Shown here: positions 1,597 to 63,488 of the stretch, in pieces
How positions within the stretch are numbered: the stretch's first letter is position 1
Layout of the letters: each line of letters begins with the position of its first letter
From: Bugula neritina
Taxonomy: Eukaryota > Bryozoa > Gymnolaemata > Cheilostomatida > Bugulidae
Assembly: GCA_964035545.1 (NCBI GenBank)
Contig: OZ037772.1
Span: forward strand, 2,736,501 to 2,800,500
Direction of reading: 5' to 3'
DNA length: 64,000 nt
The notes under the pieces: generated by a model
What the model was told of the DNA's origin: nothing
The model's input: the letters and a program-made list of their open reading frames with translations, nothing else
Database searches by the model: none
Translations under genes and position numbers: made by a program

Positions 1597-4500
1597 CTGC
1601 AACCGTTTTACCTTTTTAGGTTGAATGCAATAAAAAGAAGTGCAGTGTCAAATATACATGTAGCTTCAAGTAGACTTGCACTCATGGCAACTGAAAATCA
1701 TGGACAATAATAGTTCTATACTCAAAATACGTGCAGATAAGTCAGTAATAAGTCTGAAGTTGTGTTTATACCTCTCCTGAACAAAGTATTTATGTTTCAG
1801 TTAATAACACTCTTCAGAGTGCACCCTTAAATAGTTTTACTGAAACTCGGTGACATTTCAACTTTAATTTAAATGCTGACTAAAAATGTGGAAGGTATAA
1901 ATGCAACTTAGCAAATATTACCTAAAAGCTCCATCTAATAAAATAGTTGTGAAGTTTTAGCTACATGCAACATTTTAATAGGCAAAATTACAATCACTCA
2001 CCCTAGTGCTTACTAATCACAAAACCTGGTTTGATAACCGGGGAATTTTAAATAACAATTCATTTCATCAAGATTAGAATTAAAGTAAATTTTTTATGGC
2101 ATTCTCACCAAATAAAGATTTGCTGTCATTGTCCAACTTTGCTCTTTTAATCAAATTATTAAAAGCACTTTGAACAATAGAAGCTGAGTCTACAAAAGAA
2201 AGGAGATGCATGTAAATACAATTTTATATCTGAGTGTTATTCCGTGCATTTAATCCAAAAATGTTAATGAGAAAAACTGAAGGCTCTTGAGTGTGTGTTA
2301 CAAAAATGTTATATAAAGCCTGAGATCATGCTTTAAAACACTTTAAATATTGCATAATATATATTAAATCAAGTAAGTACAAGATCAAAATATATATCCA
2401 TACTATGATTTATTATATGTTTAAATATACATGAAGTGCTAGCATAATGTAGCTAATATTTTATATTATGATCAGCCATAAGTGATCGTTATAATTTTAA
2501 ACAATGTATATGTTCGCAGTCTAAATACAATAAATAGATAGCTGTTGTCCATATTTTCAATGCAAGCTGATTAAAAATTGCCAGTGCAGAGTGTGACAGC
2601 CGATACTAGTTGCTGTATCAGCTGATAATTGTTGCTGCGTCAGCACGGATGCCTATGTATTATGATTCACTTAACAAAGGGTGAATGAATTGAGGACACA
2701 GATGCAGGCCCCAACTCTATTTTTTGTTTATTGCCAACAGCATATTTTCTAAGTTAGACTTAGACTCGAACTCATACTTATACTCATACTGTAACCTATA
2801 ACCATGAGAATTACAAACATCATGTTAACTCAACATTAATTACACAGCTGACAAAACAATTAGTTAATGAAGTTCAAAACAAAAGATAATATAATACTTG
2901 ATACTCACAATTAGGTATAGATTGCCTGCATCTTTAGCAGGAGGAAAATTGAGCTGCACTGACTCATTGAATAGAAATAGCCAGCAAATAGCTATCGCGA
3001 AAGCTTTCACAAATAGCTTTCATTTCACAATGGTTTTTGGAAAGCTGCCAAAACTCCTGCAACACAGAGATCTATATATGGCCTTCAAAGCTATTAAAAT
3101 ATATTTTATAGAGTTCCAATCACCATTAAAACAAAGTTTGAGTATAGTAGGCAATATAATTACTGAACAGACTAACTTTAAATATATATCAACGTAAGAG
3201 GTCTAACATTATTCTTAAAAACAAAGTAACAAAAGTAACAAGCTAAAGTTGCTTTCGAAACAAAATAATGATTTACAGGTATATAAATTATTAAATTAAA
3301 ATGTTTGGTATTAGATTACATCATATAGTTTTTTGGTAAGCATTATGCATGATTGTCTCCCCAATCAACCAGAAGTCATATTATGCAGTTTGATGATTTT
3401 AGTTATTTAAAAAAGATAATTGTATTTTCAGTAAATTGTTACATGAAACAAAATTGCACATTTCCTCATAAATTTAACTACAGTTAAAACAACATTATTG
3501 TTTTTTGGTAAGACTGGAAGAAATTAAAATAATACTCAACCTAAGAAGATACATACCTTTTGCTGTCTCCAACTTGCTGCTCAACTTTTCATTTTTGCTT
3601 CTGGTAGAAACAGGCATTTTTTCTAAGAATTTAGTTATATAGTGTTTAAAAGTACTATGGTTTCCTAGCAAGCTTTACCTTGCTGAAATGTAACTTTCCA
3701 GTGTCAGAATAGCAGGTTTGACAAAATTTCTTATTTATATACTGCTATAATAGTAACAAAGAAAATTATCTGTTCTTACAATTACTTCTACTAAGGTCTA
3801 GAGGGAGACTGCATCCCTATAATTATGAAAAAGATAATAGACCTCTTGTAGTTCTGGGCCTACTTTCTTTTCATCTTCATAATAATCAGGAAGCCTAAGT
3901 AAGCCTAAAAGTTTTTAATCTACTAAAAATGGCTGCCAAGAGTTGTACTTTAGTTTAAACCTTATAAAAAAATCCTGGAATTAGCCTATTTGGCCGCAAC
4001 TTCAAAAGCACTGTCATAATTATAATATCTTTTGAATAAGTTTACCCTCCAATACTGTATAATAAAGACAAATCTTCAAGCTAGCTGTTCTATTTTTCTT
4101 GGTTTTGTGTTATCTCAGTACATGCAAAGTTTATAGTCTCTATGAGAGACCTTCTTCAACTGACTGAGCATAATAGCTGAAAATTTTGTCTGCTGTCACT
4201 ACAACGTGAACTTTTATAATAGGAGATGTTAAGAAATGCTTGCAGCTTACTGTTGCGACTATAAATATTAGACCCTGTAGCATATAAGACACCAAGTTTC
4301 ATTCACAATAAACCTAATGGGAATCAAGAGATAATAAATTCAAAGTTATTACCACATATTATTGAAAATTATCTATACATGTCTTACTCTTTTTTTGTGT
4401 AGGTAATCATATTATATGACTAGCAAGAAATTTAGATTTTGATATTCACCCATTGCGTGAACAATATTTTTTCTAACTGAATTATTTTACTTGAAAAATT

Positions 4501-8736: not shown

Positions 8737-9209
8737 GTGCTACAGCAGGAGCCCTGCACCATCACTGGGCAATCTGACATGAGCTCACGGGTTTCCTCTT
8801 GCACTGCTATGTGTAAAGTAACAGTCTTCTTTTATACAATATTAAGCTGTTAGTTTAGCATATAACTTGTCTCTATGGTTTTATATTATAGTTTATAAGA
8901 CCATGCCTCTCATGTATGTTTCCAACATGGAGATAATTTGGCATGTAATAATATGCTCCTGGCTTTTTTGGCATCACCAGGAATGCTGACAGGCTTTGAT
9001 ATATTATATTATTAATCCATTTATTGCAAGACATAATAACCTGTACACCTTTTGTTTTGAGTATATTATTACAAGAACAAGTTGTGTTTTTGATTGCATT
9101 TTATTTGACTTATTTGTAAATTCAACAAAAAATACCAATTGGTGCCATGTTAATGATGTCGAGCTTCCTTGTAAGTCTTCTTGTCTGTAAAGGAAAAGAA
9201 TGATAATGA

Positions 9210-9384
<175 letters not shown>

Positions 9385-9699
9385 CTATACAGCTATACAG
9401 CTATAAACATGCTCGTACATAAAGAAAATAACATTCATGCAACTAGTAGTAAATACTGTTTAGTATAAGCTTCTACTAATTTTGCTATGGTATGTAGCTG
9501 CATTATAATAAATAGCGAGTGAGTATACACTACTAAATGAATTGGTGGAGATCACAAAGCACTTAATAGTCTTTATGCAGAATTTTTCTTTCAGTCTAAT
9601 ATATGAAAGTTATAAAAATTATTTTAGAGAGAACACACACTAACTGAAAGCCAATTTGTTTTCAATAAAGTATATCATAGACCTGCATACTTTGTTCAG

Positions 9700-9993
9700 G
9701 AAAGAAGAGAGAGCCCCAAAGGAAGAGCCACGCCTACCATGTCCAATGAAAACAGACCTGTCATACTAAGTAGCTACAGACCTGCTATACCAGATAAAAA
9801 CAAACCTGTCATATTGCACAAAACTGAACCTGCAGCACTGAGCAAAGAGCAACCAATCAAATATTCCAAGCAAAGAGGAAACGATTCAGCATTGTGGGAA
9901 AACCTCCCCAGGGGGATCAGCAAACTCCGACAGCTGGTCAAAGTTTTAGCTACAGAAAAAAAAGAGTTGCCGAGTATTGTAATTATTCAGTGA
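9700..9993 (+). CDS. Candidate terminal exon, Pro/Lys-rich repeats
   Basis: An open frame follows a TTTGTTCAG acceptor and runs to a TGA at 9991-9993. It encodes ERRESPKGRATPT, then an 84-residue part starting at an internal Met. The first half repeats a loose 11-12-residue unit (NRPVILSSYRPAI, NKPVILHKTEPAAL). The rest is charged and helical (GISKLRQLVKVLATEKKELP). I recognise no family. It could be the last exon of the same gene as the candidates at 8.5 kb, 1 kb upstream on the same strand. The repeat could also mean a chance open frame. Confidence 0.3.
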   Translation, partial: ERRESPKGRATPTMSNENRPVILSSYRPAIPDKNKPVILHKTEPAALSKEQPIKYSKQRGNDSALWENLPRGISKLRQLVKVLATEKKELPSIVIIQ

Positions 9994-10781
9994 GGAAAAC
10001 CGCATGCTTACCTTGTTCTGGTAACCACTACACAACTGTGAAGAGAAAGGGCTGGAAAGCTACACAACTTTGAGAGATTTCTCATACAGACAGCTGTTCT
10101 ATAAGAAGTGTTACATAAGAGTTGTGACTATTGACTATTATAGACAGGGTTGTAAGAATGTGGACACAGTTTTAGGATTTCTTATTTTAGGAATCCAATA
10201 CTTTAGTTATGTTATGATAGCATTAACTTAGCAGAGGGTTTGGTGTAATTTGATCTAATGCTTAATTACTACTCAAAGCAGAATGGCTTAGTATTTTTTT
10301 TAAAAAGAACATAATATTATATTTATATTTTCTTAAAAATAAATGTTTATTATACATGCCGGTCATAAAAGTCAATTCATTATATGGTATACAGAATTAT
10401 ATCTGTAAATAAACATGTGCATGCTGCAGCTGAAGAATTACAAATAAAATGAGAAGGAAACAAAACGTATTCAACTGGATGGGTTATCAGATGACATTGC
10501 TGTATAAAATGACGAATCAGGAAAAAGAAAGCCTGTGGAAACAAAGCAACACTGAACTACAATGTGGCTAACAAATACCAGGTCAACAGAAATTATATCA
10601 AAACCAATAAATAAAATACCAAGAGGTGTAAAATATCAATATAAGTACACATAGAAAAAACAGGTGATATACAGAATAAAAAGTAACAGTTTAATATTGA
10701 TAAAGCTTTTCATTTTCACACAAACATAACATCTTTACAAGGCATTATTGTATATATATTGCGAAGGTGTGGGCCATGGTA

Positions 10782-10836
10782 CTCTGTTCTGTGCTGATGA
10801 GGGGACAAATCCCGAAACAGCTGCTGTCCACAGATT

Positions 10837-10840
<4 letters not shown>
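10782..10840 (+). ncRNA. Hammerhead self-cleaving ribozyme motif (type I)
   Basis: All conserved elements are present in order. Helix I 5' strand CTGTG is at 10789-10793. Core CTGATGA is at 10794-10800. Helix II is GGGG/TCCC (10801-10804 with 10810-10813, including one G-T wobble) closing an ACAAA loop. Core GAA is at 10814-10816. Helix III is ACAG/CTGT (10817-10820 with 10824-10827) with a 3-nt loop. C at 10828 is the cleavage-site nucleotide, and CACAG at 10829-10833 pairs perfectly with CTGTG. An outer CTC/GAG pairing (10782-10784 with 10837-10839) extends helix I beyond an internal loop. Very short helix III and a looped helix I are known for hammerheads in Penelope-like elements and animal retrozymes. 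A (TA)n tract begins immediately 3'. Predicted cleavage lies between 10828 and 10829. Confidence 0.85.

Positions 10841-10901
<61 letters not shown>
10840..10901. repeat. (TA)n microsatellite after the hammerhead
   Basis: About 30 TA units follow directly after the ribozyme 3' strand. The same junction (ATTGAGA then TA repeats) occurs at 9248-9260, so the tract is part of the repeated unit rather than a chance neighbour. Confidence 0.9.
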
Positions 10902-10906
<5 letters not shown>

Positions 10907-11044
10907 CGTATGCTCACGTGGAACTATAGAAGGAAATGTCAGCTAGAAGAGGAAAGAAATGGAGGTCAAGGCCAGGAACGCAATGTCAAGGTCAACTGGA
11001 AGAAAGTATTTTAGGTCACGACTTGTCATTCTCAATTATGGCGG

Positions 11045-13324
11045 CTAGTTTGAGCACACTTTTGGACTAGAAGAGGAAGGATACGAGGAGACCACAGAAC
11101 TCTCTGGGGAGGGAGGTAAAACACACTTCAGCTACAAAGCAAGAGTTGAAAAGAGAAATAATTGGAAAAAGTTGAAAATTTACTAATTTGATCAAAAATG
11201 AACAGATATTAATAAAAAAAATTCTACAGATTCTAACGCTGCTATGCCAGGACAACTATAGCATATTATAATTATATTATCACTTCATTATATAAAAATC
11301 ATATTACATAATATATTATATTGTTTATATGCCATATTATCCTTATATTATAATATTATAATCATACTATATTATAAATATGGTATATTATTATATTATA
11401 CTATATCAATGTACATGACTTGCACCAAGTAGATGCCAAACGTTACCTTTTCTGTGTTGGCAACTTGGGGCAGAACTCTTTTGGGTCGAACATCTGAAAT
11501 AGATGGGGAAGAGATGATTCACCGCCCCTAGCAGAGGCGTGATGTCAGGAGAAAAATCCGAAGTTAAGTTACGACAACTTTTTCTCATGGTGTTGGCGGC
11601 TTTGAGAAAGATAGCTCTGTCGTACTCCTTGCCTGAAGACAGGAAACTGTCATTGTACTTCCATAAAGGAAACGTACATGAACTGTATCAGAAGCTCAAA
11701 CTAACGTCTGTTAATAGTAATGGAAGATATAACAATCTTAATGAGAATTAAAAGCTCTATTAATAGTAATCATTAGATATCTGAATTTGAATTGTGGGAG
11801 TCTAACGCACTCACCCTGAGTAAACATCAGTTTGAACAGAGCACTGAGGTTATCTCCAATACTGTTGAGACTAGCTATAGCCTGGGAGCACATATCATAT
11901 TGCAGCCACGGGTCTACCTTAGTAAGTTTCATACCTTCCAACTGTAAAAAAACGACAGAGCGAATAAAAATGAATAACTGAACAAAGAATACATTCAATA
12001 ACAGGTGGTTGTCAGGTGGGTGATATTCACTACTGCTTCCCTCTGATCATGTCATGTAACAGTCAAATATGACATCACATGTCGACTCACTCTGCACTGC
12101 GGGTGGCTGTGACAAGCAGTGCTCCATACTCAGACCACCCACAGTCCAAGCACCTGGAGCACTGCCCACACATGACAAAAAGTGACAAGACAAAGTGCTT
12201 GGGATAACTAGCAATACAAGGAGAATTAACAGTCAGAGTATGAAGCTGGTACTCACCAGTTTGAAAGTGTTCCCAATACCATCTCTATAACTGGTTAGAA
12301 AGGATTGCACTTGGTTGAGTACTCTGTTAACAGCACCATAAATATCCTCTTTAGCGTCGCAGTTGCCGGCACCTGCACAACATGAAATAACTACCACCTG
12401 CTATCCGTTGACATATGTGAGACCAGTTGCTAGTGACATCAAATGACAGGTACTTGGTTAGCAAATTTATACAAAGATGAGAGTTCTACTGTCACTTGAT
12501 CAAAGGTTGCGACACTCTTCGCTTAGTGTGACTCATAAATTATATATGACTTAGGCTAGCAGGTGAGCATGATCTCATATTATAAGCTATGTAGCTCAAA
12601 ACTATGCAAGCATCCTACCATAAAGAGACACCACTACACCGCACCATTAGTATGAGAGTCTTCATAAGAACTAAAGCTACACTCAAGCCCCACCAGCATG
12701 ATAGAATATGTCACAGACACTTACTATTGCACATATAGTCTATGAATGAGAGGGTTGCAGTTAGCTTCTCTGTAGATGTATGGATACATTGAGCAAGGGC
12801 ACCTTGGGCACATGCCATGCGCACATCTGTTGACAGCTGTCAAGTACATGGCAGTACATATTGATGAACAGGTTTGAATGTAATCAACCGGGATTACTGC
12901 CACGTTATAAAAACACAGGGTCTAAAAACTTAGATCTATTTGAGAGACTTTAAATCTTGGTGAAGAGAAAATACAACTCATCAGAAATATGTACAAATTA
13001 TTACTAACTGGTATGTATCATATAGTATGTATTACAAATATTATAAGAAAGCCTGTCTAATGCAAAAACACTAAGTGCACTTGTTACTGCTACTACAACC
13101 ATTGGACAATCACCTGCATGAATTTAATGATGAGCCTGGATATCTTATTGCTGAGCTGTGACATCCTCTGCACAGTGTCTGCAAGGTGCTCGAGTCAATA
13201 TCATCACACACACTAGAGCACAGCTGGCACTGTTCCATCAACACCTCCGATGAGGTCACCAGTTGCAGACAACATGTCCCTGTAGCTTCTTGACGCTGAG
13301 AATCTTCTGGCTCTATAAGTTTGT

Positions 13325-26730: not shown

Positions 26731-29700
26731 AATGCAAGATCAGTAAGGGGGAAAATATCGGAGACTCAAACCCTATCCGTTGAATACAATATCATTTGCA
26801 TTACTGAAACACACCTAGATAATGCATTTTTGAATTCTCAACTGTTTTCTTCCAAAGATAAAGTAGTATATAGAGAAGACCCTGACTCGCACGGAGGTGG
26901 TGTATTGATTGCCATAAATGTAGGAATTCCCCATAAGCTAATCAGGTGTGAAACAGAAGCAGAAGTAATCACATAATGTTTTAGATTGGATAGCAAGGAA
27001 TATTGCAATCTTACTTACTATTATAGACCCCCTTCTTCACGTGTTATGAACTTGTTCTTTAAGTACATGGAAAATATTCACACTAAATACTCATAACTGG
27101 TGAATTTAACCTTCCAGGAATCAATTGAGGAAAATACTGGTCTTTCAACTTGTTGGAGGATATACTATACTGACTTTTGTAATTTTCTAACTGATAATCA
27201 TTTTGAACAACTTGTTCATAAATATACGCACGTAGCAGGCAATATATTAGATCTCATCTGTACTGACTTGTCATATAAAGTTTAAAGCACAAATATAATA
27301 ACACCGGGTATTAGCGACCATTTCATGATAGAAACGGTCTTGACCGGTAAAGTTGAACAGAAGAAGAAACCACCTATCCCCCCAATCAAGCTATTTCACA
27401 AAATCGAGTTTCGAACTCGGCGGGTTTACAACTTGTCTAGACGAGTTGCTTTATACTATTAAAAACAAAGTGATGCTGAAATATGATATTAATGTTATAT
27501 GGAATACATTTCAGACTGAATTACATATACTTGTTGATTCATATGTACCAACTAAACAACGTAAGCCTAGAAATCTACATGAGCCTCTCTGGTTTACGGG
27601 CATGTTAGAAACAGCGAAAGTTCTACAACCGCTTTCAAAAGTCTGGTGATACTGATCATTTGGCTAAATATAAAGAATTACGTCGCCACAATGAAAAATT
27701 ATTTAGGAAGCTAAAAGCATCTTTTCTGGTGGATTGTCTATACCAACCTCTTTCCAGTGGCTACACAAAACCGTTTTACTAACATGGTAAAGACCTAAAA
27801 GAGAATGATCATGAGATTACTTCCATAGAAAATAACGATAGTATTTTGATGCACGATAAAACTAAGATATCTAACACTCTGAATGGTTTTTTCTACAGTG
27901 TATTTACCACTCCATCACCTTTACCAGAATTACCATCAGTCACTGAGAAAGATAATATAGTGGTAACTAAAGAAGGAGCTGTAAACCTGCTGAGACAACT
28001 TGTGCAAGGTAAAGCTCCTGGAGTAGATGGATTCACAAAGAACTATCTCACAGTAGACTTAGATCGAACAGCAGAAATACTGGTGTGTATTTTCAATCAT
28101 TCACTCAGTACAGGAATAGTGCCGGATGACTGGAAGACTGCAAATGTAACACCTGAGTTTAAACAGGGTAACCGCATTCTAGCTTCCAATTATCGACCAG
28201 TATCACTAACGTGCATTTGTTGTAAAATTCTTGAACATGTGGTTCTGGATCATTTAAACATACAATTGGAAAATTTCATACATGAAAGCCAACATGGTTT
28301 TCGCCGCAACTTTTTATGTGTAACTCAGCTTGCTACTGTCAACCATGATATATTAAGGCATATAGATAAAGGACATTTTGTAGATGCAGTTGTGCTGGAT
28401 TTTTCTAAAGCCTTTGATGTAATTGACCATCATATTCTTGTAAGCAAAATGATATTGTTAAAAAAATAAACCCCTGTATTATCTGATAAATTTCATCATT
28501 TTTAACTGGACGCTCACAACGAGTGGTCATTGATGGGGTATCTTCGGATTTACACCAGTGACTTCCGGGGTTCCACAAGGAAGTGTGCTGGGTCCAACAT
28601 TATTCGTTTTGTTTATTAATGACATTGTAAACTGCGTTACACACAGTACAATCAGACTTTTTGCTCATGACACTTTTGTCTATCTGCCCATTACTGATGC
28701 AAATGACCATCATAAACTACAGGGAGATCTCTAGACTTTATAGGTGGGCAAAAGAAAACAATATGAAGTTAAACTCAAAGAAAAGTAATGTCATTACCTT
28801 TGGTAAGAAAACAGAAAATATGGAAAATGTCTTCACTTATAAATTAGGAAAAGATCCCCTGAATAGAGTTGGAGTTGTAAAATACCTTGGGATATTGCTA
28901 TCAGCAGACTTGAAATGGAATAAGCATGTCAAAAACGCCATATCAAAGGCATACGGAGTATTGTGGTGGCTCGTAGAGCTACCAGCAACACAATACGCAA
29001 GGTTGCGTATTGACCCGGAACGATGTACTAGCCAATTAGCTAAGCTGCTTAGGAATAATAGTAGCAGCTTCGCGCTACTAGCTCAGTTAAGGATAGTGCT
29101 GTAAATTAAATAGACGTGCGTATTATTAACTGTTGTATATTAGATTTTATTATGTATTCTTGTATTCAAATATAACGATATCTACTCGACTTATCACGGT
29201 GAAGTTTCTCTAGTAATAAATAGACTCTCTTGGTTGCACATCGACCCTAAATCTGAAAATCATAACAGTATTAGGATTAATCAAACTCACACTAGGAAAT
29301 GCCCTAGAAAATGTTATGAGTCTTGCATAAAAAAACTTTTTGTAGACCTCTCCTGGAATATGCTGCGGAAGTATGGGACCCGACCAATTAACATCTAATA
29401 ACAAAATTAGAAGTTACTCAAAATAGGGCTATATGGTTCATTAAAAATTTAAAGGGTAGAGAAGTATCGATAACAGCTGCCAAATTTGACCAAGGCCTGG
29501 AAACATTAAGAAAGCGTAGACAATCACAAAGAATTTCTTTGTTTTGTCGCATTACTGCTAATGATGATTTATTTCCAACCTCGAATAACACACTTAAATC
29601 AATGAAATCCTCAACCCATGACATGAATACCCGTATTAAGACTTTCAATGCTATAGCCTGCGATTGGAGCCTGTACCTGCAGGGTTTCCTGGTGCGCACT

Positions 29701-29742
29701 GTCCGGGAGCTCCATACGGGGAAAATAGTAGCGGATTTCTGA
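26715..29742 (+). pseudogene. LINE ORF2, endonuclease and reverse transcriptase, broken
   Basis: Endonuclease motifs appear in order: LSVNARSV, ICITETHLD, HGGGVLIAI, YYYRPPSS, ITGEFNLPGI (family GDFN, here Asp to Glu) and GISDHFMI. The reverse transcriptase shows GKAPGVDGF, NYRPVSLTCICCKILEHVV, QHGFRRN, LDFSKAFDVIDH (motif A), TSGVPQGSVLGP (motif B) and LFAHDTF (motif C, where the first catalytic Asp is His, codon 28676-28678). A thumb region follows (VKYLGILLSADLKWNKHV), then LEYAAEVWDP and a C-terminal part ending VADF. Stops or shifts lie at 26974, near 27096, after 27282, at 28467 and elsewhere. A gap of about 300 bp at 28975-29285 looks like a second insertion. The enzyme would nick DNA and reverse-transcribe element RNA; this copy cannot. 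Confidence 0.85.
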
Positions 29743-30554: not shown

Positions 30555-31600
30555 GACCAACCACTACTACTACTACCACCACCACCACTACTACTGCTAC
30601 TACCACCACCACCACTACTACCACTACTAATACCATCTCCACAACTACCACCACCACTACTACTACCACCACTACTACTACCACAACTACTACTCCTTCA
30701 ACTACTACTACTACTACCACTACTACTACTACCACTACTACTACTACCACTACTTCTACTCCTTCAACTACTACTGCTACAGCTGCTACTACTACCACCA
30801 CCACTACTACCACCACCACTACTACCACCACCACTACAACCACTACTACTACTCCTTCAACAACCACTACTACTACCACTACTGCTACTATCACCACCAC
30901 TACTACTACTACCACTACTACTACTCCTTCAACTACTACTACTACAACTACCACTACTACACTACCACTACTACTACTACCACTACTACTACTCCTTCAA
31001 CTACTACTACTACAAATACCACTACTACACTACTACTACCACTACTACAACCACTATTACTACTACTACTACTACCACTACTACTACTACCACTACTTCT
31101 ACTCTTTCAACTACTACTGCTACAGCTGCTACTACTACCACCACCACTACTACCACCACCACTACTACCACCACCACTACTACCACCACCACTACAACCA
31201 CTACTACTACTCCTTCAACAACCACTACTACTACCACTACTGCTACTATCACCACCACTACTACTACTACCACTACTACTACTCCTTCAACTACTACTAC
31301 TACAACTACCACTACCACTACTACAACCACTACTTCTACCACTACTACTACCACCACCACTACAACCACTACTACTACTCCTTCAACTACCACTACTCCT
31401 TCAACTACTACTACAGCTGCTACTACTACTAATACTACTACTACTCCCACTACTACTACTACTACTACTACAACCACTACTACCACTGCTACAACCACTA
31501 CTACTACTACTATTACTACTGCTACTACAGCTGCTACTACTACTACCACTACTACCACTACCACCGCCTCCACCACCACCCGCTGCCACTCCAACTGCTA
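30555..31600. repeat. Kilobase ACT/ACC trinucleotide block
   Basis: About 1 kb of ACT and ACC triplets with interspersed CCTTCAA and GCT motifs. A plus-strand frame starting upstream (Met at 30452 or 30467) gives a hydrophobic signal-like segment (IVIIQIYFLYLFFEILFVL) and then a Thr-rich tract with PSTTTT repeats, before the frame slips to Leu/Pro and Tyr/His near 30960. It could be a broken mucin-like exon, but all three frames are open for trivial reasons. Confidence 0.85.
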
Positions 31601-35757: not shown

Positions 35758-35836
35758 TATATAATTATATTTATATATATAATTATTATTTTTATATATC
35801 TATATATATATATGAATATATCTATATAGATACATG

Positions 35837-35881
<45 letters not shown>

Positions 35882-35966
35882 GATAATATATATATATACA
35901 TGTAGATATATCTATATAGATATTATCATATATCTATATAGATATATGATAATATCTATATAGATA
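35758..35966. repeat. AT palindromic repeat
   Basis: TATA, ATATCTATATAGATAT and related self-complementary strings, able to fold into hairpins, in a collagen intron. Confidence 0.85.
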
Positions 35967-36044
35967 TATGGCGTTTCCCAATTATCTAACTTCTCTTCTA
36001 GTCCACATTCACTTAACCATAATATGCTGTAAGCAATACGCTTC

Positions 36045-40612: not shown

Positions 40613-41871
40613 ACTCATATCTAACAACAGTTTTATTTGGCTGATTTTTTAAAACTGTCCCTGATTAGAGAATTAGTGGCCAATCAGAGAATGCAATCAA
40701 TGTTAGTTGGCTGAGACCAGCAGTCTGATTTTTATATAACCTAATTGTAAATGAAAGATTTGATTACTCTAAATAAATTTATCCGAGACTTCCAAGGCAG
40801 TGATGGTGATTTTTGCACATATAAATTTGAAGGAGTTTAGCTATAGGGTTTATACTGTTTTTTTAATTATTCCACCATAACCTGAGATTGTGAGTAGTGA
40901 TTCTAGAATGAGATAGGGAGGGTGTTATGCCTCTCCCTATGACTTTATATATTTAGAAACTGTTGTTAATTTAGTAATTCTTGTTGGTGCTACATTTTTA
41001 AATTCATTCAATCCAATCATTTCTCTGATATTGCAAAATACATTTTACCATAAGGTGCTACACAACTTATTTCTCAGCTTGTAGATTTCATCATCAAAAT
41101 TATTATAGTACTAAAGTTGGTCACAGATTTCTGATAAGCTGCAGTTTTCAGATCTGATTATTTAACCTATTCATCCTGAAATGAGACATTGTTAGTTTAA
41201 AATGGAATTTAACATATATTTTAGTTACTTAGTTCCAACTGTGTTGACCATATCAACATTTTAAATTTTATTTTGGATGCTATGAAGTATATAAGCAAAT
41301 GGCATTAAGTTATTAATATATGTAATAAGGTTTGCAAAGACTTAATATACCAAGCAACTGTGACAAGACATGACAATAACTCCAGCCAATCATACATAGG
41401 ACTTTGTTCAACTACCTTCAAAGCCAGACTCAGCAACCATAAAGCCTCTTTCCTACATGCAGATATAAAGCCAACAACACACAACTCAGCAGACACATCC
41501 GGAATTTAGAACAAAAACAACACGAAATTCAGCCTAAAATGGATCATTTTAAAAATTTGTAAATCTTACTCAAAACCTAATCAACAAATGTAACTTATGT
41601 AGCTATGAGAAATATGTAATTTTGAAACAATCGGAGTTATCCACTCTCAACAAACGCAAAGAGCGAAGTGTGAGAATTCCATGCTAGTGACCTGCCACAC
41701 ACAGTGCGTGTGTTGCGAGTGCAAAATATTATTAGCAAATGATGTTAGCGTTAAACTTTACTGCTCGCCTACAGACGTTTGTTTTTAAACAGCGTCACCG
41801 GGCAAAGTTATTTGGATATTATAAAGGCGGAAATGTAAAATATATAAAACTGTTTTAATTCAGCTCAGTAT
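40613..41871. other. Intergenic DNA downstream of collagen
   Basis: I see no gene. A patch at 41640-41800 is richer in CpG (GTGCGTGTGTTGCGAGTGC) than the rest, but no coding exon or promoter motif is clear. Confidence 0.4.
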
Positions 41872-42446
41872 ATTATGTCATACAGTATATTATGTTATAC
41901 AGTATACTATGTTATACAGTATATTATGTTATACAGTATATTATGTTATACAGTATACTATGTTATACAGTATACTATGTTATACAGTATATTATGTTAT
42001 ACAGTATACTATGTTATACAGTATACTATGTTATACAGTATATTATGTTATACAGTATACTATGTTATACAGTATACTATGTCATACAGTATACTATGTT
42101 ATACAGTATATTATGTTATACAGTATACTATGTTATACAGTATATTATGTCATACAGTATATTATGTTAAAAAGTATACTATGTTATACAGTATATTATG
42201 TTATACAGTATATTATGTTATACAGTATATTATGTTATACAGTATACTATGTTATACGGTATACTATGTTATACAGTATACTATGTTATACAGTATACTA
42301 TGTTATACAGTATACTATGTTATACAGTATATTATGTTATACAGTATATCATGTTATACAGTATATTATGTCATACAGTATACTATGTTATACAGTATAT
42401 ACTATGTTATACGGTATACTATGTTATACAGTATATTATGTTATAT
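41872..42446. repeat. 17-bp minisatellite, array 1
   Basis: About 33 copies of TATACTATGTTATACAG. The variants ATTATG, GTCATAC and ACGG recur in no strict order. Each junction forms a GTATAC palindrome. The long Tyr/Ile/Cys-rich frames on the plus strand are artefacts of 17-bp periodicity. Confidence 0.95.
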
Positions 42447-43745: not shown

Positions 43746-44036
43746 ATATACTATGTTATACAGTATACTATGTTATACAGTATATTATGTCATACAGTAT
43801 ATTATGTTATACAGTATACTATGTCATACAGTATATTATGTTATACAGTATACTATGTTATACAGTATACTATGTTATACAGTATATTATGTCATACAGT
43901 ATATTATGTCATACAGTATACTATGTCATACAGTATACTATGTTATACAGTATACTATGTTATACAGTATATTATGTTATATACAGTATATTATGTCATA
44001 CAGTATACTATGTTATACAGTGTTTAATGTTATACA
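43746..44036. repeat. 17-bp minisatellite, array 2
   Basis: The same unit and the same variants as array 1, in the same orientation, about 1.3 kb further on. About 16 copies. Confidence 0.95.
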
Positions 44037-62279: not shown

Positions 62280-63030
<751 letters not shown>

Positions 63031-63488
63031 TATAATACAAGTACCTCTACAGCCTTGGTTGCCATATCGTCACACGCCACATACCACTGTGGTTTGGGTA
63101 TCGGCTCAATGATATCTTTAGATCGACTATAACACAAGAGACCACGGTGTGGAGGTCATTGTTAACAGACAGACTCACATAGTAACAGTTCAACTCAACA
63201 GCATTGTAAAAGATAGTGGATATGTTAATGGAGCTATTCTTTAGGAGAACAAGAGAAGGCAACTTCTATTTCATTGAGATCTGTAACTATGAGTCATTTT
63301 ACTTGATTTAGCACACAGAGCCATATACCTCTAGCTTTTAGCTATTGTTCACAGTTGAGCTGCTAATTCCGTATCTCAGTAAGCTGAGGGACCTGACACC
63401 TCAATTCATGACACAGTAGAATTCTTACCTTAGCAGAATACCATATTTAACACACGGATCTGTTAAATTATTTGGTTCCTACACACAA

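Follow-up and report, generated by a model that had tools for sequence, protein, structure and literature searches.

Non-LTR retrozymes of metazoans, known from coral, mussel and axolotl, are described by Cervera and de la Pena (2020, PMC7229834) as tandem units of ~170-400 nt with low GC content and type I hammerhead ribozymes, whose RNAs form self-paired circles. Target-site duplications, when present, are longer than 4 bp. According to the same paper, Penelope-like elements coexist with animal retrozymes and are proposed as their mobilisers, being called a "strong candidate". The words microsatellite, sponge and truncated are absent from its main text, and we saw no mention of TA junctions there; we make no claim that such junctions or whole-lap copies are unpublished.

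Penelope-like elements carry hammerheads of their own, described in PMC7761336 as minimal, without helix III or loop-loop contacts. As reported by Arkhipova et al. (2013, PMC3846280), these elements form partial tandems and head-to-head inverted copies, show microhomology at their 5' ends and are subject to mobilisation in trans. Frangieh et al. (2024, PMC11167929) describe a Penelope protein that cuts AT-rich DNA and extends both strands, with reverse transcription starting internally, at a pair of neighbouring sites in agreement with the genomic tail; hammerhead cleavage was dispensable for insertion in vitro, and the RNA-seq described there gave no sign of cleaved ends. More distant are the LTR retrozymes of plants, which are likewise non-autonomous and hammerhead-bearing, with a circular RNA intermediate proposed, but which are longer and carry type III hammerheads within LTRs together with a PBS and a PPT, whereas the hammerhead described here is of type I (PMC4918200, PMC7761336).

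Results

A type I hammerhead motif in the window

The window is the whole 64-kb stretch of Bugula neritina DNA that was analysed (C8:2736501-2800500). The original prediction placed in it a hammerhead ribozyme with the conserved core, GAA, three helices and a C at the cleavage site in the right order. All of these are read directly from the sequence (Table 1). Helix III was claimed as 4 bp with a 3-nt loop and is ACAG-CUG-CUGU, and helix II, claimed as GGG/CCC plus a wobble, is GGGG-ACAAA-UCCC with its G-U pair. The pairing proposed for helix I (CTGTG with CACAG) holds, but inner helix I is 6 bp long, one more than claimed. A descriptor comprising the core, helix I of 5 bp, helices II and III of 3 bp each and a non-G at the cut found this motif as its sole match in the 64 kb and gave 2 matches in 300 dinucleotide shuffles. 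A looser core pattern matched the window 4 times against 0.35 expected.

Table 1 Features of the hammerhead-bearing copy and its surroundings (positions in the window)
Feature	Positions	Strand	Basis
Host repeat, at least 3.2 kb, in which the window copy is nested	9203-12423		34 matches: 32 on C8, 2 on C5
5'-truncated copy of the 271-bp retrozyme unit, 87 bp	10757-10843	+	87-bp stretch common to other copies
Type I hammerhead ribozyme motif, outer helix I to outer helix I	10782-10839	+	Read directly; single descriptor match in window
Outer helix I, CTC/GAG	10782-10784/10837-10839	+	Read from sequence
Internal loop UGU/UU between outer and inner helix I		+	Read from sequence
Inner helix I, UCUGUG/CACAGA	10788-10793/10829-10834	+	Read from sequence
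Catalytic core CUGAUGA	10794-10800	+	Direct reading and core-pattern scan
Helix II GGGG/UCCC, loop ACAAA	10801-10813	+	Direct reading; energy model permits helix II
GAA between helix II and helix III	10814-10816	+	Read from sequence
Helix III ACAG/CUGU, 4 bp, loop CUG	10817-10827	+	Direct reading
C17 of the hammerhead	10828	+	Read from sequence
Predicted self-cleavage site, after C10828	10828-10829	+	Predicted from the hammerhead core
Putative zone in which reverse transcription starts (ATTGAGATAT), 6-15 nt beyond the cleavage site	10834-10843	+	Copies end here and join (TA)n
(TA)n tract at 3' junction of window copy	10840-10902	+	No long tract in 16 empty sister sites

The covariance search proposed as a check, a miss in which was to speak against the ribozyme, returned no Rfam hammerhead family at its gathering score, an outcome that nominally counts against the motif. 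The best match was RAGATH-1-hammerhead, at 15.2 bits against a cut-off of 56.3 (E 1.8), and Rfam searches of the window and of the loci L009 and L091 described below gave only AT-rich microRNA-like noise or sub-threshold matches. In a 68-nt stretch, the hammerhead fold (-12.7 kcal/mol) lies 2.9 kcal/mol above the minimum-energy fold (-15.6 kcal/mol), and the stretch folds no better than its shuffles (z -0.18). Direct reading confirms a complete type I hammerhead motif in the interval. In our view the missing Rfam match reflects a limit of the Rfam models, because copy number, tandem register and empty sites, all described below, are independent of those models.

The window holds other repeats. 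LINE-type reverse transcriptase fragments lie at 27783-29742, with RVT_1 on 27783-28469, and a Gag-like open frame at 787-1596 matches Retrotrans_gag below the Pfam cut-off. Tandem repeats are unusually abundant in the window (81 entries), including a 1-kb ACT-rich array at 30563-31561 and a 17-bp repeat that forms two arrays separated by 1.3 kb (41866-42445 and 43747-44036). Large AT-rich palindromic stretches at 35794-35970 and 62408-63034 gave sub-threshold microRNA-family matches on both strands, which we judged to be noise.

A 271-bp ribozyme-bearing family

The genome searched comprises 215.8 Mb in 295 contigs. A 35-nt core allowing up to 3 mismatches occurs in 527 genomic copies (260 forward, 267 reverse), while a reversed-pattern control gave 0. 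The larger copies share a 271-bp unit repeated in exact head-to-tail register, with up to 4 consecutive units (C8:7936530-7937606), and copies occur as singles, in 5'-truncated form or as exact head-to-tail arrays. The original prediction of a small non-autonomous ribozyme-bearing retroelement, and its expectation of related and tandem copies, are supported by these counts and by the empty sister sites described below. A short-gap hammerhead pattern matched 6 places in the genome, all of them variants of the 271-bp family (control 0), and the exact 27-nt core was found in neither IMG/VR nor the prokaryote genome set (0 matches in each).

The analysis covered part of the 527 copies, namely 68 loci that gave 76 arrays on chaining. 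Fewer than two units are present in 55 of the 76 arrays and two or more pieces in 21, a few pieces being rearranged fragments (L034, L071, L082). Identity to the unit of L009 ranges from 92.3 to 100% among thirty units of 256 nt or longer; the median of 99.2%, measured against one unit, suggests a young family. The unit has a GC content of 43%. The three-unit array of L009 is touched by 5 ORFs of at least 50 aa, none of them wholly inside it, and a tRNA search of L009 found none. Folded as a circle, the unit has a predicted energy of -99.6 kcal/mol against -61.2 +/- 4.6 kcal/mol for 200 shuffles (z -8.43), and of -95.9 kcal/mol with the hammerhead enforced.

Compared with the L009 unit, the hammerhead region is less variable than the rest (35 of 3545 versus 169 of 9965 site comparisons). 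Within the hammerhead region, variation peaks at unit position 253 (9 of 69, deletions counted), where a T to C change in L028, L042 and L043 turns the helix II G-U pair into G-C. Neighbouring units within an array differ at 62 of 5327 sites, or 3.15 per 271 nt, fewer than units of different arrays (7.58 per 271 nt, 1161 pairs). Four arrays run against this trend, their neighbours differing as much as or more than the between-array median (L010, L012, L065, L079), and L071 equals it.

Array ends and TA junctions

Most sampled copies cross the cleavage site on their 3' side and end 10-15 nt beyond it in (TA)n. With a 3' junction scored when it carries a TA run of at least 12 nt, and a 5' flank when such a run lies within 40 bp upstream, L065-L084, which were taken from the core-pattern list without regard to TA, have a 3' TA junction in 19 of 21 arrays and TA in the 5' flank in 13 of 21. 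The corresponding values are 36/37 and 26/37 for L009-L043, a set found with a query that contained TA and including sister copies of one insertion, and 9/9 and 7/9 for the tandem arrays L092-L100. As background, 3529 stretches of 40 bp lying over 600 bp away from any core in L065-L084 had no such run, and 1.3% of stretches drawn at random within the window had one. Copies lacking a 12-nt TA run at the 3' end are L073, L075 and the minus-strand copy of L013. The 3' junctions of L065-L084 take the forms GAGATAT(TA)n (6 copies), GA joined directly to TATAT (9 copies) and others (6 copies); at the internal junctions classed in the same loci, the longer form is kept in 23 of 23.

With sister copies dropped, 17 of 72 arrays have their 5' end at unit positions 9-12 (13 exactly at 12), i.e. 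whole laps back to the 3' start zone, and 7 of 72 have it in a second cluster at 198-202. Short leading pieces were left out of this count, and the exact 5' ends are uncertain by a few nucleotides, since BLAST alignments run on through TA that happens to match. Whole-lap arrays include some of two units (L096, L100, L012) and one of four (L093). L082 starts at unit position 191, where ACTATA is joined to TATA, yet spans the cleavage junction. These ends fit a template continuous across the cleavage site, circle or multimer, on which TA-rich DNA would prime at UA-rich sites. TA microhomology alone may also yield the whole-lap 5' ends, so by themselves they do not separate a circle from a multimer.

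Target-site duplications were not recognised by eye in the printed flanks, where TA tracts would hide them. In L086, L013 and L076, retrozyme copies or fragments lie head-to-head, separated by TA tracts in L086 and L013 and by ~30 bp in L076; this arrangement could reflect priming from both strands or two insertions. Retrozyme pairs in L017 and L022 are in tail-to-tail orientation.

The window copy and its empty sister sites

The window copy matches unit positions 200-271 over 10757-10828 with 100% identity and continues, at 10829-10843, with the first 15 nt of the next lap. Matches of its host repeat on C8 lie mostly in the first 4.2 Mb, most long copies being 91-96% identical, and this repeat, which may be a dispersed satellite limited to one chromosome, contains an open frame of 121 aa (9628-9993) without a Pfam match. 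Twenty sister loci (L044-L063) were compared, of which 4 are filled (the window itself, L051, L056 and L060) and 16 are empty; a copy of the host repeat on C5 (L034) is also filled. At an empty site the flanks are joined as in GTATATATA-ACTATTTGTATTAGAAGAGAGAAACAATATA-ATTTCG. At filled sites both flanks are retained, with 26-31 bp between them missing and the retrozyme fragment and a long TA tract gained. This comparison of filled and empty sisters shows the window copy to be an insertion that was later co-amplified with the host repeat. Because the empty sisters carry only a short (TA)4 and no long (TA)n, the tract would either have pre-existed in one allele since lost or have been made on or after insertion.

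Penelope-like elements of this genome

A Penelope-type reverse transcriptase probe gave 89 matches in the genome at E up to 1, of which 57 were below 1e-5 (best 1.4e-29, 48% identity). None of the 89 lies in the window, bearing out the earlier remark that no Penelope ORF is nearby, and many are found elsewhere. The element at L091 has a 777-aa ORF on which Pfam calls only RVT_1; its end reads as GIY-YIG-like by motif. The best database relatives of this ORF carry PF26215, which we take to be Penelope-associated. A genome search with the GIY-YIG Pfam model found 1 place, other than L091, and was rejected as a measure of Penelope-like elements; the probe together with ORF reading gave reverse transcriptase followed by a GIY-YIG-like stretch. 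Elements with this order of reverse transcriptase and GIY-YIG-like end (again with no Pfam call), a minimal hammerhead and ends in TA tracts are seen at L033, L090 and L091. L090 holds a second, divergent reverse transcriptase type in which YRDD replaces the usual motif.

L091 is a partial tandem with the same 729-bp end at 907-1635 and 3659-4387, and each end holds a minimal hammerhead core, CTGAAGA...GAAATATC (at 1033 and 3785, minus strand). Beyond the site of predicted cleavage, two points of joining to (TA)n were seen, about 35 nt from each other: the L033 end runs into (TA)n after CTATTTATA, the L091 end after AAAGATATATTTAAAT. When the L091 end with its TA served as query, 37 of 44 alignments (E < 1e-100) continued beyond the tail into TA for 15 nt or more; the proportion is biased, since the query itself contained TA. 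The sampled ends of the co-resident Penelope-like element obey a rule similar to that of the retrozyme ends, and in L033 a retrozyme and a Penelope-like element lie tail to tail with one TA tract between them. The 271-bp unit and the L091 element have no detectable common sequence beyond TA, and the link between them is therefore one of architecture.

Discussion

Judged from its sequence, the 271-bp family belongs to the metazoan non-LTR retrozymes, with which it agrees in the following features: a type I hammerhead with helix I open and helix III of 4 bp, a unit length within ~170-400 nt, tandem arrays, GC below 45%, no coding capacity, a circle predicted to be strongly self-paired, and co-resident Penelope-like elements. 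It differs from those described in that nearly all sampled copies lie in TA tracts and many are short truncated singles, that the junctions suggest a reverse transcription start site, and that it is known from DNA alone. The junction evidence is what it adds to known retrozymes. With Penelope-like elements bearing minimal hammerheads, the family shares a hammerhead followed by the 3' end within tens of nucleotides, two alternative end sites, partial tandems, AT-rich targets and 5' microhomology, as these are described in PMC11167929 and PMC3846280. In contrast to an autonomous Penelope-like element, the unit has a helix III, no ORF and no similarity to the local element. The original prediction had taken the short helix III as the Penelope form, which does not agree with the minimal hammerheads described in PMC7761336.

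Setting together the observed copy number, unit, array register and junctions, the one locus with empty sisters and the co-resident Penelope-like elements with similar ends, we consider it probable that the window holds a 5'-truncated copy of a 271-bp non-autonomous non-LTR retrozyme whose RNA circle was copied by a TA-primed Penelope-like reverse transcriptase. In this model the type I hammerhead would cut tandem or read-through transcripts, and the products would be closed to 271-nt circles. A Penelope-like reverse transcriptase would cut TA-rich DNA, and the TA end would pair with AUAU just past the cleavage site and prime synthesis round the circle, which could cover a fraction of a lap, a single lap or several laps. 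The 5' end would then be joined at short TA microhomologies, as the recurrent end points suggest. The ribozyme may be dispensable at the insertion step itself, since Penelope insertion in vitro and the accompanying RNA-seq gave that picture (Frangieh et al. 2024). More tentatively, the junctions might record rolling-circle reverse transcription of a ribozyme-made circle, in which a Penelope-like enzyme, with TA-rich target DNA as its primer, starts at AUAU 10-15 nt past the cleavage site and copies fractional or whole laps, while slippage may lengthen (TA)n; we hold this to be possible rather than probable.

Three other origins were weighed. The copies might stem from a SINE-like linear element, uncleaved read-through transcripts of which prime some reverse transcriptase through their own (UA)n tail, the ribozyme being incidental and no circle being used. 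Such an origin would suit the 55 of 76 sampled arrays with fewer than two units and the (TA)n that ends nearly all sampled copies, but the exact 271-bp multimers, the whole-lap arrays of two and four units and the permuted L082, with its start at unit position 191 and its passage across the cleavage junction, require a template that is circular or multimeric, and the strongly folded circle that is predicted also argues against it; we regard it as unlikely. Most improbable is a spread without RNA, in which recombination of DNA between TA tracts would have dispersed a satellite and the hammerhead would be a relic. It would have to explain why copies, dispersed in their hundreds, are almost constant at the 3' end and variably truncated at the 5' end, and why the hammerhead region varies less than the rest of the unit, although short tandem arrays with TA flanks and nesting inside a nearly contig-limited repeat are what a satellite would show.

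A different question is whether a circular or multimeric RNA template was copied by a LINE or other reverse transcriptase instead of by Penelope-like elements. In the comparison of Penelope-like and retrozyme ends, both come after a hammerhead and run into (TA)n, and the purified Penelope protein, as described in PMC11167929, cleaves AT-rich DNA, with internal starts at two neighbouring sites. Against these stand the LINE-type reverse transcriptase within the window at 27783-28469, weaker matches to reverse transcriptases of another type in the genome, and the lack of sequence similarity between the unit and the Penelope-like element. On balance, we think another mobiliser somewhat unlikely.

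A route by which solo hammerheads can come to lie beside TA repeats is illustrated here, and such hammerheads are overlooked by Rfam cut-offs. If true, the rolling-circle reading would supply the missing link between retrozyme circles and the enzyme that mobilises them. Because this is a young family with empty and filled sites, whole-lap copies and co-resident Penelope-like ends, the identity of the enzyme that copies the circles of animal retrozymes into genomic DNA is testable here with one RNA circle and one protein.
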